DNA from: Burkholderiales bacterium
Lineage (GTDB): Bacteria > Pseudomonadota > Gammaproteobacteria > Burkholderiales > Burkholderiaceae_C
Reading direction: 5' to 3'
Length of the DNA stretch: 45,174 bases
NCBI GenBank assembly: GCA_030602985.1
Contig: JAUVYR010000007.1
Span: 1-45,174 of the forward strand
Of this stretch, positions 22,872 to 45,174 are shown in pieces (position 1 is the stretch's first letter; each line of letters opens with the position of its first letter). The notes under the pieces were generated by a model that searched no databases, was not told the origin of the DNA, and worked only from the letters and a program-made list of their open reading frames with translations. The translations under genes were made by a program, and so were the position numbers.

Positions 22872-23084
22872 TCAGTGGCCGTGGGCCACGACTTCTCCAG
22901 CCTTCAGCCGATACACGGTCCCACAATAGGGGCAACGCACTTCCCCGGTCTTGGCCACATCCAGGTACACCTTGGGGTGGCTGTTCCAGAGTTTCATGTC
23001 CGCCTGCGGGCTGGGACAGAAACCCCCCCCGTGGCTGTTCAGATCTTTGGCGGCAAGTTCGACAACGGCTTGGCTCATGTTCAC
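22872..23084 (-). CDS. Zinc-finger (zf-CHCC type) domain-containing protein
   Basis: 70 aa; FCPSPQADMKLWNSHPKVYLDVAKTGEVRCPYCGTVYRL, as in the NDUFS6-like zf-CHCC family; overlaps the ilvE stop. Confidence 0.88.
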   Translation of the reverse strand: MNMSQAVVELAAKDLNSHGGGFCPSPQADMKLWNSHPKVYLDVAKTGEVRCPYCGTVYRLKAGEVVAHGH

Positions 23085-24016
23085 ACCTTGGTCAGCCAGT
23101 GGGCATATTGGGGGTTGCGGCCATTCACGATATCAAAAAAGGCCGTCTGCACTTTTTCAGTGATCGGGCCGCGGCTGCCTGCTCCGATCTCGATCCGGTC
23201 CAGTTCACGGATCGGGGTGACTTCTGCTGCGGTTCCGGTGAAAAAGGCTTCATCGGCAATGTAGACCTCATCGCGGGTGATGCGTTTTTGCACGATCTCC
23301 AGGCCCAGATCCTTGGCGATGTGGAACACGGTATTGCGCGTGATGCCGTTCAGGGCCCCGGCCGACAGGTCAGGCGTGTAGATCACCCCGTTTTTGATGA
23401 TGAAGAGGTTTTCTCCAGCCCCTTCGCTGACGAATCCGGCCGAATCAAGCAGCAACGCTTCATCGTAGCCCTCGTCCGTGGCCTCCATGTTGGCCAGGAT
23501 GGAGTTGGTGTAGTTGCTCACCGCCTTGGCTTGCGTCATGGTGATGTTGACATGGTGGCGGGTGTAGCTGCTCGTCTTCACGCGAATACCGCGCTTGAGG
23601 CCTTCTTCGCCCAGGTAGGCGCCCCATGCCCATGCGGCCACCATCAGGTGGATGGTGTTGCCTTTGGGTGACACGCCCAGTTTCTGGTCACCGACCCAGG
23701 TCAGCGGGCGGATATAACCGCTTTCCAGCCTATTTTCGCGAATCACAGCCTTCTGCGCTTCATTCACCTGTTCCTGGGTGAACGGAATTTTCATGCGCAG
23801 GATCTTGGCGCTGTTGAACAGGCGCTCAGTGTGTTCCTGCAGACGAAAAATGGCGGGTCCATGGATGGTGTTGTAGGCACGAACCCCTTCGAAAGCACCG
23901 CAACCGTAGTGCAGGGTGTGCGTCAGCACATGGATCTTGGCATCGCGCCAGTCCACCATCTGGCCATCCATCCAGATTTTGCCGTCGCGGTCGGACATGG
24001 AGGGGGTTGCAGTCAT
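23081..24016 (-). CDS. ilvE: Branched-chain amino acid aminotransferase
   Basis: KIWMDGQMVDWRDAKIHVLTHTLHYGCGAFEGVRAY; GVIYTPDLSAGALNGITRNTV; class IV aminotransferase. Confidence 0.97.
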   Translation of the reverse strand: MTATPSMSDRDGKIWMDGQMVDWRDAKIHVLTHTLHYGCGAFEGVRAYNTIHGPAIFRLQEHTERLFNSAKILRMKIPFTQEQVNEAQKAVIRENRLESGYIRPLTWVGDQKLGVSPKGNTIHLMVAAWAWGAYLGEEGLKRGIRVKTSSYTRHHVNITMTQAKAVSNYTNSILANMEATDEGYDEALLLDSAGFVSEGAGENLFIIKNGVIYTPDLSAGALNGITRNTVFHIAKDLGLEIVQKRITRDEVYIADEAFFTGTAAEVTPIRELDRIEIGAGSRGPITEKVQTAFFDIVNGRNPQYAHWLTKV

Positions 24017-24135
24017 CTTTTGCCTCAAAATAAAATGTGAAAGTCAAGTGTGATCAACAGGGTTAAGCCCCGTCTTTTCCAGCGAATCTGATTTTACGGC
24101 CTGACGTAAGCTTAAAAATTTTTTCTTTAAGACCC

Positions 24136-24162
24136 TAAAGTTTGTCCGTGAACTGCCGAAAT
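24136..24162 (+). promoter_or_regulatory. Putative sigma28 (FliA) promoter: TAAAGTTT-N11-GCCGAAAT
   Basis: -35 TAAAGTTT is an exact match to the FliA consensus; spacer exactly 11 nt; -10 GCCGAAAT versus consensus GCCGATAA; about 54 nt upstream of the ATG at 24216. Confidence 0.85.
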
Positions 24163-24215
24163 GAGAAGAAAGCGGGCATCCCGTCTGATCTTTTGACGCT
24201 CGCGAGGAGTTCGCC

Positions 24216-24956
24216 ATGCTGACCATTTCTTCTGTTGCTGTCTCTCCCGTCCCACCGCAGGCGCCAACGGTGGTTCGTGTGCAGCCGACTGCGCCTGTCA
24301 AGGCGAGCGACAACGTGTCTGCTGAGAATCAGGGAGTGGTGGCGCCTGTGACACCTGTGGGTGAAGGTTTCCGCGTCCAGGCAGGCGTGGCAACGCCCTC
24401 ATTGCCGCCTGTCAATCCCACCGGCGAAACGCCGCGGGTCAACAACTTCAACAATACTGCAACGCCCGAACGCCTGGGTGATGCGGTCGTGGTGTCGGCC
24501 GCACTTGCTCAGCGGTCAACAGCTGCTTTGGCAACCAGTGCACCGCGTAACGAGCCCTCCTTCCAGAATGCAAGGGATTCTTCAGCCGAAGAGGCCAATG
24601 AGGCGCGCCTGAATGCCGAGCCTCCAGACAGGGCCAACACGTCTTCAGCTCAGTTGAGCCCTGAAGCCCCCCGTTTGCGCGGTGAGTTGCCAGTCGAAGT
24701 GCAGAATCCGGCCATGGCAGCCATGGAAGCGCAGATCAACGACCTGCTACCCAATATCTGGTCGGCCAGTCGTGCGGCAGTGGATGTCCTGATCGGTGAA
24801 GAGGCCCGCGCAGCTGCCGCCGCGCGTTCTGAAATCCTCGCTGGTCGCGCTTCGGGGAATGCGGAGCGAGTGAATGAGGCGGCTGAAAACTACAACCGAA
24901 CCTCCAATTTGCCTGGTGAACCGAGCGCAGGCCGCAATATCGACCGTCTCGTCTAG
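24216..24956 (+). CDS. Uncharacterised Pro/Ala-rich protein, putative flagellar-regulon member
   Basis: 246 aa, good RBS (GAGGAG) before the ATG, FliA-type promoter upstream, converges on cheB; no family recognised. Confidence 0.8.
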   Translation: MLTISSVAVSPVPPQAPTVVRVQPTAPVKASDNVSAENQGVVAPVTPVGEGFRVQAGVATPSLPPVNPTGETPRVNNFNNTATPERLGDAVVVSAALAQRSTAALATSAPRNEPSFQNARDSSAEEANEARLNAEPPDRANTSSAQLSPEAPRLRGELPVEVQNPAMAAMEAQINDLLPNIWSASRAAVDVLIGEEARAAAAARSEILAGRASGNAERVNEAAENYNRTSNLPGEPSAGRNIDRLV

Positions 24957-24961
24957 ACCGG

Positions 24962-26062
24962 TCAGATGCGGTGGCGCACGCCGCCAGCGCTGTTGACGCG
25001 ATCGATGATGGCTTTCGCGATCGATTTGAGCGGCAACACCTCGTGCACGGCCCCCTGCTGAATCGCCATCTTGGGCATCCCGAACACAATGCAGCTGGCC
25101 TCGTCCTGGGCCAGGTTGTAACTGCCTGCATCTCGCATTTCTTTCATGGCGGTTGCACCGTCGCCTCCCATGCCGGTCAGCATCACGCCGATGGCATTGG
25201 GCCCCAGCACCCGGGCACAGGACTTGAACAGCACCTCCACGGACGGTTTGTGACGATTCACCGGTGGAGAGTCGTCAACCACGGCCACGTAATTGGCACC
25301 GCTGCGTTCAATGTGGAACTGCTTGCCCCCTGGCGCAATGTAGGCATGGCCGGGCAGGATACGCTGCCCGTTCACGGCTTCTGAAACCCGGATCTTGCAC
25401 AACGAATCCAGCCTGGCCGCAAAGCTGGTAGTGAATCCGGCTGGCATGTGTTGTGTGATGACGATGGCCGGCGAATCGGGCGGCAGTTCCACCAGAATCT
25501 CCTTGATGGCTTCTGTCCCTCCGGTGGAAGCGCCCACGCAGATGACTTTTTCAGTGGAGAGTCGATGGACCGTCAGGGGTTTGTTATCCGTGAGCGATAC
25601 CTGACCAGTGGCAGAACCATGGCCCGCGACAGTCGGGGCCGGCGAGACATGCCGGGCCACACGTGCCTTGCTGGCCACACGAATCTTTTCGACAATGTCT
25701 GCCCCGAGCGCTGTCAGACCACTGGCCACCCCGATACGGGGCTTGGCCACAAAGTCGACAGCACCCATTTCCAGGGCCCGCAAGGTGGTGTCCGCGCCCT
25801 GCTCAGTCAGCGTGGAGACCATCACCACTGGCATCGGGCGCAACCGCATCAGTCGAGAAAGGAACTCCAGGCCGTCCATCTTGGGCATTTCCACGTCCAG
25901 GGTGATCACGTCCGGGTTCAGCTCCCGGATCATCTCGCGCGCCATGAGTGGATCATTGGCGGCGCCAATACAGCACATATCGGGCTGTTTGTTGATGATC
26001 TCGGTCAACAGACTGCGGACCAGCGCGGAATCGTCAACCACCACCACCTTGATTTTCTGCAT
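24962..26062 (-). CDS. cheB: Protein-glutamate methylesterase/glutaminase CheB
   Basis: REC domain ([17 protein letters not shown]...[17 protein letters not shown]) plus CheB catalytic domain ([48 protein letters not shown]). Confidence 0.98.
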
Positions 26063-30925: not shown

Positions 30926-32017
30926 TTGACAGATTTCCACCTGATTCATATTGAGGACAACCCTGCCGATCATGAGCTTGTCTTGCGCACGCTTGATCGG
31001 TGTGACGTGCCTTGCCGTGTCACCTGGGTCGACAGTCTGGAGGCTTTTCAGGAGGCTTTTGCCTCCACCCCTGTGGATGCGGTGTTGGCGGACTACCACC
31101 TCGCTGGTTTTTCAGGGATGGAAGCCTGGGAATGGTTGCGTTCGCAAACCCTGGAGCTGCCATTCATTCTGGTGTCTGGGGCGATCGGTGAAGCCACGGT
31201 GGCCGATGCCATGATTCGCGGGGTGAGCGACTACGTGGACAAGCATCACCTGCAGAGGTTGCCCCTGGTGCTGCAGCGCTCGCTCGAATTTCACGACGCC
31301 CGGCGGGCGCAAGCGCAGGCCCGACGGGCCCTGGAAGAGTCCCGCCAGCGCTTGCTCAGCTTGACCGAACATTTGCAGCAGAGCATCGATCGCGAACGGG
31401 CAGATATTGCCCGCGAAATCCACGACGATATCGGGGGGGCGCTGGCGGCGGTCAAGCTGGACCTGTCATGGCTGTCTCGTCGGCTCAGCGACGAAGCATC
31501 GCAGCGCCATGTACAAGCCGGCTTGGCCATGGTGGAGCATGCGCTGGGTGCCAGCCAGCGCATCATGCGCAACCTGCGGCCCGCTGTGCTGGACCAGGGT
31601 CTATGGCCGGCTTTGCAGTGGCTCACGCAGACCTTTGCCGATCGTTCAGGCCTGCATGTGCACTTGAACGGTCGACTGAGCCGGGAGGTGTCCCCCGATC
31701 AGGCCATGGTGGTGTACCGCACAGCCCAGGAAGCCCTGACCAATGTGCTCAAGCATGCCGGTGCTCGGGAGGTGCGGCTGGACATCAGCGATCTGGAAAA
31801 CTGCCTGACCCTGGAGATCAGTGACAATGGCAGGGGAGCTACCCCGGAAGATCTGGCCAAATTGCAATCATTCGGGTTGCTGGGTCTGAAAGAGCGCGCG
31901 CACAGTGTGGGGGGATGGCTGGATGTCGTCACGCAGCCTTCGCAAGGGATGACGCTGATACTGTCCATCCCGCTGTCGGGTGCGTCCTCCGTCGAATCCT
32001 GGGAGACTTCAGAGTGA
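30926..32017 (+). CDS. Hybrid sensor kinase with N-terminal receiver (REC-HisKA_3-HATPase_c)
   Basis: N-terminal REC (HIEDNPADHELVL...AVLADYHLAGFSGMEAWEWL), HisKA_3 (ERADIAREIHDDIGGALAAVKLDLSWL), HATPase (TAQEALTNVLKHAGA, ISDNGRGA, GLLGLKERAHSVGG). TTG start. Confidence 0.92.
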   Translation: MTDFHLIHIEDNPADHELVLRTLDRCDVPCRVTWVDSLEAFQEAFASTPVDAVLADYHLAGFSGMEAWEWLRSQTLELPFILVSGAIGEATVADAMIRGVSDYVDKHHLQRLPLVLQRSLEFHDARRAQAQARRALEESRQRLLSLTEHLQQSIDRERADIAREIHDDIGGALAAVKLDLSWLSRRLSDEASQRHVQAGLAMVEHALGASQRIMRNLRPAVLDQGLWPALQWLTQTFADRSGLHVHLNGRLSREVSPDQAMVVYRTAQEALTNVLKHAGAREVRLDISDLENCLTLEISDNGRGATPEDLAKLQSFGLLGLKERAHSVGGWLDVVTQPSQGMTLILSIPLSGASSVESWETSE

Positions 32018-36942: not shown

Positions 36943-38124
36943 TCAGGCGTAGACGCTCAGCCCGACCCCTGATTGTTGCCGCAACAGCCGAGCGGCCTCA
37001 GCAGGCTCACCGGTTGATCGGTCGCTCTGCCGGGCAGAGGAGTCCCTTCGGTCGCCAGACGGCTGACCGGATTCACCAGCATCCCGACCACCCACCGACA
37101 GGCTTTCCAGTCCCAGGCCCGCCCGACTGAGCATGTCGGCCAGCAAGGTATGGGCGTGGGCGCGCAGGGCTTCACGCACCTGCACATCATCGGTGCGGAA
37201 AGCCAGCTCGGCTTTGTCGCCCACCAGGCTCACGTCCACTTCCATGGCCTCACGCAGACCGGCTTGCAGCATCAGGCTGGCTTTACGCGTTTGCCCCGCG
37301 GCCCACAGGCTGATCTGATTACCCAGTTGCTCAAAGGCCTGATCCATGCCGCCACCCATGGCGTCACCCAGTGCCGTGGCAAAGCTCCGAATCGTTGCGC
37401 CATCTGTGGCGGCAGAACGAACCTGGCCCGCAGATTCGAGCATCACACGGGCGCCTTCTCCACGCTGCCCCTGGCCTTGTCCGCCTTCGCGTTGTTCACC
37501 CGAGCGCTCGGCACCCGCTGGGTTGAGTGCATGCAGGTCCATGGCATCGGGCTCGCCCAGGCGTTCAGCCAGCAGACCACCGGGCTGCCCTGTGCTGCCC
37601 GCATGCCAGGCGCTGCGCATCGGGTCGGCCGCCAGCCCCTGGGTCACATCAGGCCCCGGCAGGTTTTGGGCCATGTCAGCCAGCAGGGTGGGGGGGGCGG
37701 CACGTGGCCGGGCCTTGGCCACTGTGGATACCCACTGCCCAGGGCCGCCCATGTCGGCCGCGCCAGGGCGTGAGTTTTCAGGCTTGGTGTCTGGTTTCGC
37801 TTCCGGTGTCTCGCCCATTTTCTGGTCAGACGCCATCAGCGGAAGGGCGAAGACTGTTTCGCTGTCTTTCAACTCGGCTTCTTCGCCCACTTCCGGGCTG
37901 GGTACGGGCGGGTTGAGGAGTGCCTGTGTATCCAGGGGTGTGTCCTGTGAGTCGGGCGAGGTGGCGATCTGTAGCGGGTTATCACCTTCCGCCGCCGACA
38001 GCAAAAGCGAGAAAAGATCGGCCGGAGCGTCCTTGGTGTCCCGCTTGGCAGGGCGGGCGTTGCCAGATGCATCGGCAGGGGGCTTGGGGGCAACGGCTTC
38101 TGTTTTCATGGCTGGGATCTCCAA
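36943..38124 (-). CDS. fliK: Flagellar hook-length control protein FliK
   Basis: Pro/Ala-rich N-terminus; C-terminal Flg_hook domain (RKASLMLQAGLREAMEVDVSLVGDKAELAFRTDDVQVREALRAHAHTLLADMLSRAGLGLESLSV). Confidence 0.9.
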   Translation of the reverse strand: MEIPAMKTEAVAPKPPADASGNARPAKRDTKDAPADLFSLLLSAAEGDNPLQIATSPDSQDTPLDTQALLNPPVPSPEVGEEAELKDSETVFALPLMASDQKMGETPEAKPDTKPENSRPGAADMGGPGQWVSTVAKARPRAAPPTLLADMAQNLPGPDVTQGLAADPMRSAWHAGSTGQPGGLLAERLGEPDAMDLHALNPAGAERSGEQREGGQGQGQRGEGARVMLESAGQVRSAATDGATIRSFATALGDAMGGGMDQAFEQLGNQISLWAAGQTRKASLMLQAGLREAMEVDVSLVGDKAELAFRTDDVQVREALRAHAHTLLADMLSRAGLGLESLSVGGRDAGESGQPSGDRRDSSARQSDRSTGEPAEAARLLRQQSGVGLSVYA

Positions 38125-43608: not shown

Positions 43609-43956
43609 ATGGACCTGCGCCTGACCCCTCTGACTTCAGCCACCACACCCGCCATGCGACCCGCCGCCAGTTTGGCCCAGCCGCTGGGTGGGGCAGCGCA
43701 GACGCCGGGTGCGGGCTCGCCACGGGTCGCTGGTGCTGGTTTTGGCGAGGCCTTCCGCACCGCATTGCAGAATGTGAGCGCCGCACAAAACGAATCCAGC
43801 CGCCTGCAGACGGAATTCCAGATGGGCAACCCCAACGTCAGCCTGGAGCAGACCATGCTCTCGATGCAAAAAGCGCAGATCGGTTTTCAGGCGGCGCTGC
43901 ACGTGCGCAACCGTATGATGCAGGCCTATACGGATGTGATGAACATGCAGGTGTGA
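43609..43956 (+). CDS. fliE: Flagellar hook-basal body complex protein FliE
   Basis: FGEAFRTALQNVSAAQNESSRLQTEFQMGNPNVSLEQTMLSMQKAQIGFQAALHVRNRMMQAYTDVMNMQV; divergent from fliF. Confidence 0.97.
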   Translation: MDLRLTPLTSATTPAMRPAASLAQPLGGAAQTPGAGSPRVAGAGFGEAFRTALQNVSAAQNESSRLQTEFQMGNPNVSLEQTMLSMQKAQIGFQAALHVRNRMMQAYTDVMNMQV

Positions 43957-43968
43957 TTCAGTGCGGGT

Positions 43969-44253
43969 TCAAAGCCGCCCTTCGGCCGTTTTGTACGCAG
44001 CCAACGACTCCCGTTTCCCGATAGAGATCACCCTGACTTGAACGGTTTGATCTTGCACACGATAAACCAGTCGATACCCCAGACTCACCAGTTTGATCTT
44101 GTAGCAATCTGGCATGGAGGACAGCTTCGCGGACTCCACCCTGGGGTGTTGCAAGCGTTCCTGTAGTTTTTTCTTGAAGGCTTGCTGGACCGTTTTATCC
44201 AGTTTTTTCCATTCTTTCAGAGCCAGTTCGTGAAAAACCAGCTCATAGCTCAT
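43969..44253 (-). CDS. RelE/ParE-superfamily toxin (type II TA)
   Basis: SYELVFHELALKEWKKLDKTVQQAFKKKLQERLQ...CYKIKLVSLGYRLVYRVQDQTVQVRVISIGKRES is a typical RelE pattern; overlaps the antitoxin. Confidence 0.92.
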   Translation of the reverse strand: MSYELVFHELALKEWKKLDKTVQQAFKKKLQERLQHPRVESAKLSSMPDCYKIKLVSLGYRLVYRVQDQTVQVRVISIGKRESLAAYKTAEGRL

Positions 44254-44488
44254 CCAGATTCACCTTCACATAAGGACCGGCTTCGCGAGCTTCCACAGTC
44301 TGGTGGTCTATCAGGTCTTCTATCTGGTTGATCAAGCGCTCATACAGGGCCGCCGGGACCAAGTAGGCCTCAGGCTTGTTGTGATTGAGCACAGCTACAG
44401 GCTCGTTGTCGGCTTCACGCATCACTTCTGCGTAATGACGCTTCAACTCCGTCACACTGACAGAGCGGCTAGCCAGAATCGTTTGCAT
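44243..44488 (-). CDS. Phd/YefM-family antitoxin
   Basis: SVSVTELKRHYAEVMREADNEPVAVLNHNKPEAYLVPAALYERLINQIEDL; 11-nt overlap with the toxin gene. Confidence 0.92.
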   Translation of the reverse strand: MQTILASRSVSVTELKRHYAEVMREADNEPVAVLNHNKPEAYLVPAALYERLINQIEDLIDHQTVEAREAGPYVKVNLDEL

Positions 44489-44542: not shown

Positions 44543-44845
44543 TCAATGCAACTGCACGGGCGCCACCGGCCGGTGCAGTTCACCCAGATCGTCCACCCAG
44601 GGCTCTACCAGTTCACGCATCTGTGCGTCGTGGCGCAGGATGGTCATCATGATGCGGTGCTTTTCGGCGCGCTCTTCGGCTGACAGATCCATGCCCTGCG
44701 AGCGTTCGCGCAATTGCTCAATCAGCACCGCGCAAGCCCCTTCCAGGCGAACCACCTCATCCCAATCCTCGGCCAAAGCCGCCGACAGCATCCGTTCGCT
44801 GGTGCTTTCGATGGCTTTGTAGAAGTCGAGCAGAGGAATCGTCAT
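44543..44845 (-). CDS. fliT: FliT-like flagellar chaperone (copy 1)
   Basis: 100 aa helical; LLDFYKAIESTSERMLSAALAEDWDEVVRLEGACAVLIEQLR...ILRHDAQMRELVEPW, FliT-type; flagellar context. Confidence 0.8.
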   Translation of the reverse strand: MTIPLLDFYKAIESTSERMLSAALAEDWDEVVRLEGACAVLIEQLRERSQGMDLSAEERAEKHRIMMTILRHDAQMRELVEPWVDDLGELHRPVAPVQLH

Positions 44846-44853
44846 GGCGGTTT

Positions 44854-45174
44854 TCAGGGCTTACTGGAACTATCGGCCAAGTATGCGCCAACTTGACCGT
44901 GAATTGAAGGGTTAAGCCACTCATGTACCTTGACCCAGCCCGGCTCGGCCAGGTTCCGCACCTGAGCGTCCAGTCGCAAAATCGCTTTCAGCGCAGCGAG
45001 GCGGGCCTGCCGTTCCGTGCGAGTCATGGGCTGCATCTCGGTGGCCTTCAATGTGGCCACTTGCACCTGTGCCACCGACTGCAAGCGCTCCACCTCGCCC
45101 CATTGCCCCTGCTGGGCGGCCGCAGCCATGCGGGCGCTGGTCTGTTCAAGGGCTTGGTAGTGGGTCAGCGTTGT
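44854..45174 (-). CDS. FliT-like flagellar protein (copy 2), partial at the right window edge
   Basis: Frame open to 45174: TTLTHYQALEQTSARMAAAAQQGQWGEVERLQSVAQVQVATLK...ILRLDAQVRNLAEPGW aligns along its length with the downstream copy. The track start at 45129 is internal. Confidence 0.8.
   Translation of the reverse strand, partial: TTLTHYQALEQTSARMAAAAQQGQWGEVERLQSVAQVQVATLKATEMQPMTRTERQARLAALKAILRLDAQVRNLAEPGWVKVHEWLNPSIHGQVGAYLADSSSKP

Follow-up and report, generated by a model that had tools for sequence, protein, structure and literature searches.

The 246-aa protein gene at positions 24216-24956 (+) of the window, the whole 45,174-nucleotide stretch of DNA analyzed here, is very probably a FliA (sigma28)-dependent late (class III) flagellar gene, and its product is probably a cysteine-free and mostly disordered protein that docks via one helix. 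Comparative analysis showed that the predicted FliA promoter is conserved in the lineage, that the ORF is under selection, and that the gene occurs in one copy per genome and together with flagella. The class III flagellar-regulon membership claimed in an earlier, sequence-only reading of this DNA is thus strongly supported by an ortholog-conserved predicted FliA box, co-occurrence with flagella and protein-level selection. Genes of the FliA regulon are a known class, to which this one belongs; for the protein family, we found no published description of the gene or its relatives in the open-access literature.

The gene, its promoter and its transcript

The ORF (supported by ORF call, profile, AlphaFold2 and dN/dS) is preceded by a ribosome-binding site, GAGGAG, at 24205-24210 (+), of which GAGGA is largely kept in orthologs, and the positions of start codon, ribosome-binding site and stop are consistent among them. 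By context, its neighbors are a divergent class IV aminotransferase gene (ilvE-like; 23081-24028, -) and the convergent cheB (24962-26062, -), whose stop codon lies 5 nt from that of the ORF, in agreement with the convergence on chemotaxis genes reported earlier. Comparison with the nearest relative (71% identity) gave a dN of about 0.19 and a dS of about 1.7, indicating purifying selection; changes are fewest in the first 30 codons and in the core, and most numerous in the linker.

The predicted FliA promoter at 24136-24162 (+), assigned by pattern match and by upstream conservation in 14 orthologs, has the form TAAAGTTT-N11-GCCGAAAT and reads TAAAGTTT-GTCCGTGAACT-GCCGAAAT in the window. Against the FliA consensus TAAAGTTT-N11-GCCGATAA, as printed in PMC2859248, the -35 element and the 11-nt spacer are exact and the -10 element carries two mismatches; 0.04 matches per window are expected by chance at three or fewer mismatches. 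The pattern TAAAG-N14-GCCGAWA has a single exact match in the 2.1-Mb draft genome, which is this box, and five further sites with one mismatch each, one of which precedes flgM. Both FliA (NF005413/TIGR02479, above cut-off) and FlgM are encoded in the same draft genome. The promoter had been called near-perfect, and it is indeed the best site of the genome, exact in -35 and spacing and conserved in orthologs.

In the 14 aligned ortholog upstream regions, the invariant positions are mainly CTAAAGT, CCGA, the ribosome-binding site and the start, and the FliA box, about 80 nt before the ATG, is the best-conserved upstream element of the gene. Among the 21 cheB-adjacent genes, a strong box is present at -79 to -86 in 17, and two more have a weaker box in that position. 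In a second branch of the family, described below, 22 of 27 distinct genes carry a strong FliA-type box, located between about -80 and -109; in both branches, strong boxes were reached by at most two of 100 shuffles each. The box was not recognizable in a few homologs (L014, which is cut by a contig end, L026, L115, L117 and L128). Because of the invariance in 14 orthologs and the same placement across the cheB-adjacent genes, we take the predicted box to be a phylogenetic footprint rather than a chance match. That the promoter is fortuitous and the gene outside the flagellar regulon is hardly credible, since the site is the top conserved upstream element across genera, it is found again in the second branch, whose genes lie at other loci, and the family co-occurs with flagella.

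Directly after the predicted transcription start there is a short hairpin, GCGGGCATCCCGT (24172-24184 or 24172-24187, +), which is alike in several close orthologs; the ortholog comparison gave no covariation support for it. No terminator was found between the ORF and cheB. With the two stop codons so close, the FliA transcript might act mainly as RNA, either antisense to the cheB 3' end or as a UTR-derived small RNA, and sigma28-dependent small RNAs are known in E. coli (PMC10578931). We regard this as very improbable: the ORF is under strong protein-level selection, the transcript had no match in Rfam, the hairpin is without covariation, and the family is also retained where cheB is not adjacent.

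Several other features were observed in passing. A FliA-like site with three mismatches (TCAAGTTG-N11-GCCGATAG; 44870-44896, -) is located upstream of fliT and falls within the upstream ORF at 44854-45129 (-). In another genome (G139, locus L077), a FliA-like box (TAAAGACC...GGTCGATA, upstream of position ~191) precedes a response-regulator gene adjoining cheB, and the family member of that genome sits elsewhere. The window also encodes, on the opposite strand of the flagellar/chemotaxis region, a fusion of response regulator and HisKA_3 histidine kinase (30926-32017, +), as well as a pair of RelE/StbE-type toxin (94 aa) and YafN/Phd-type antitoxin (81 aa) at 43972-44488 (-), inside the flagellar cluster between fliE (43609-43953, +) and fliT (44546-44845, -).

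The protein and its two-branch family

The conserved N-terminus of the protein, MLTISSVAVSP, is followed by a disordered linker rich in Pro, Ala, Val and Thr, an amphipathic core helix with a W-x-A-S motif (VQNPAMAAMEAQINDLLPNIWSASRAAVDVLIGE; 24699-24800, +) and, as defined by the ortholog profile, a C-terminal region that opens with an invariant Tyr and closes with GRNIDRLV (24891-24953, +). AlphaFold2 predicted one helix, at residues 165-229, and low confidence elsewhere, so that the low-complexity N-terminal half and helical C-terminal half described earlier proved correct. Searches of Pfam, NCBIfam, PHROGs and PDB sequences with the protein gave zero matches, bearing out the previous view that it has no recognized domain. 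It had also been called an orphan, which holds in databases only; profile searches detected many homologs in related genomes.

Orthologs adjacent to cheB were found in other genomes of the GTDB family of the host, one of them in a record named Tepidimonas sp. UBA997. The profile of the first branch, built from 20 orthologs, contains three conserved islands, namely the N-terminus (M[LI][TNS]..S), the core helix and the C-terminal region, which runs from the invariant Tyr to a G..hD.LV-like end. With this profile we found the second branch, proteins of about 143 aa that start with MQ.PPVDRSP.WRPQGADLYSTGASGA and carry EPIYKQLLEFIQSMWRASGSAVE, in about 30 genera (L040, L042-L047, L098-L118, L122, L124 and L128). 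Profile-profile comparison joins the branches via the core (E = 4.8e-6), the reverse search with the second-branch profile retrieved first-branch genes at E values of 4e-4 to 5e-3, and intermediates (L022-L025, L039 and L041) combine the core with the C-terminal Tyr region. A 34-aa helix with W-x-A-S-x-x-[AV]-[VI]-[DEQ] is shared by both forms, and the 22-residue core is amphipathic in both. For a second-branch protein, AlphaFold2 likewise gave one helix (87-126), with helix confidence at best moderate and low confidence elsewhere. Common to the branches are also the C-terminal Tyr region, the disordered N-terminal part and the FliA-type promoter at a similar distance. The W-x-A-S helix family can be defined by the core helix motif with the C-terminal Tyr, both present in the 246-aa protein, and by a FliA-type box roughly 80-95 nt upstream of the start codon, which its gene likewise has. 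The family is fast-evolving.

The ortholog search proposed in the sequence-only reading thus yielded a two-branch family, and a core-only search found one copy per genome in 57 of the 201 genomes sampled from the GTDB family (about 40 of 141 genera). No sampled genome holds both branches (chance 0.014). No match was found outside the GTDB family in an order-wide sample of 200 genomes, searched with the second-branch profile only. For the second branch, no curated family was found, and a plasmid search gave no match. Its loci are away from cheB, in several genomes close to genes that were recognized by eye as gspF-like and cyanophycin-associated.

Other identities were rejected. The similar helix and C-terminus prompted a comparison with YjfB (PF14070), which gave a profile-profile probability of 0.2% (E = 0.29); YjfB was not found in the source genome either. 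FliK paralogy was dismissed, as there is neither a Flg_hook domain (PF02120) nor significant pairwise similarity, and so was FlgM paralogy, with no match to TIGR03824 or the Pfam FlgM model. A phage origin was discarded after the PHROGs search.

Co-occurrence with flagella and possible function

FlgI is present in 150 of the 201 sampled genomes, in 55 of the 56 confident carriers of the gene and in 95 of the 145 genomes without it (Fisher p = 8e-8, which ignores kinship among genomes and is a guide only). The FlgI counts were unchanged in the core-only set after one swap. One FlgI-negative genome, 90% complete, carries a copy. A detectable copy exists in only about a third of the flagellated genomes of the GTDB family, therefore the gene is not essential for flagella in general.

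With regard to the mechanism, export of FlgM would free FliA, which would then transcribe the gene, so that the protein would be made alongside flagellin, stator and chemotaxis proteins. Its amphipathic helix (W-x-A-S-x-x-[AV]-[VI]-[DEQ]) probably docks on a conserved partner from the flagellar or chemotaxis machinery, while the disordered N-terminal part and the C-terminal Tyr region would serve as tethers or secondary motifs. The protein would be an accessory of late flagellar assembly or of motor/chemotaxis output, and it would either stay in the cytoplasm or be exported late.

A role as a new chemotaxis/motility factor, as suggested in the earlier reading, is plausible, though the adjacency to cheB is not general. 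Most sampled cheB loci have other neighbors; in most genera the place is taken by other genes, among them one for an ABC-F-type ATPase (assigned by eye), and we rejected the gene as a general cheB neighbor. Since most homologs are located elsewhere in the genome, not beside chemotaxis genes, the adjacency does not point to CheB. For this reason we consider it rather unlikely that the protein serves the chemotaxis array or the motor as an adaptor in the cytoplasm, for instance as a CheB/CheA- or C-ring-binding peptide protein, even though cheB adjacency in one branch, the single putative docking helix in the AlphaFold2 model and the expected FliA co-expression with chemotaxis genes are consistent with it.

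Export through the flagellum is also plausible. The protein may possibly be a late flagellar type III export substrate, like FlgM, FliK or a filament-junction protein, with the disordered N-terminus as signal and the helix binding a chaperone until secretion, although we would not call it the probable case. A set of 28 homologs (6009 residues) is devoid of Cys, like FliK (0/393), compared with 15 Cys in 1630 residues of CheA/B/D/R, but low Cys is expected of disordered proteins in any case, and homologs are not independent observations. The N-terminal part is disordered in the models of both branches and the first residues are conserved within the cheB-adjacent branch, whereas N-terminal sequences differ between the branches, so that no common signal is evident. 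FliA dependence, as for flgM, would fit an export substrate; the lack of FliK similarity and of a FlgM or FliK domain does not.

Comparison with known systems places the predicted class III gene as follows. FlgM, the anti-sigma28 factor, is likewise small, disordered and cysteine-free, with a FliA-type promoter in the same genome; however, our protein has no FlgM domain, its core helix motif is unlike FlgM, and the FlgM of this genome is separate and elsewhere. FliK, for hook-length control, resembles it in the low-complexity N-terminal part without Cys (Pro+Ala content of 0.23 against about 0.28), but has the Flg_hook domain that our protein lacks and is a separate gene at 36943-38124. The YjfB family, a putative motility protein, is similarly small and motility-associated, and its 'A[LM]D.Q' helix bears a superficial resemblance. 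Class III genes of unknown function share the FliA promoter and co-occurrence with flagella; the curated families searched do not include our protein. We tentatively propose, at somewhat less than even chances, a component of flagellum or chemotaxis specific to one GTDB family (about 40 of 141 sampled genera) and absent from the databases searched, a disordered one-helix protein that would be made only after hook completion and would act as a modulator of late export, of the base of the filament or of the output of motor and chemotaxis.

One of the main sources of difference between bacterial flagellar systems is their lineage-specific class III proteins. In a large beta-proteobacterial family, the gene described here extends the late flagellar regulon by an unrecognized, widely distributed member, and it offers a clear promoter, a defined 34-residue putative functional core and many homologs.
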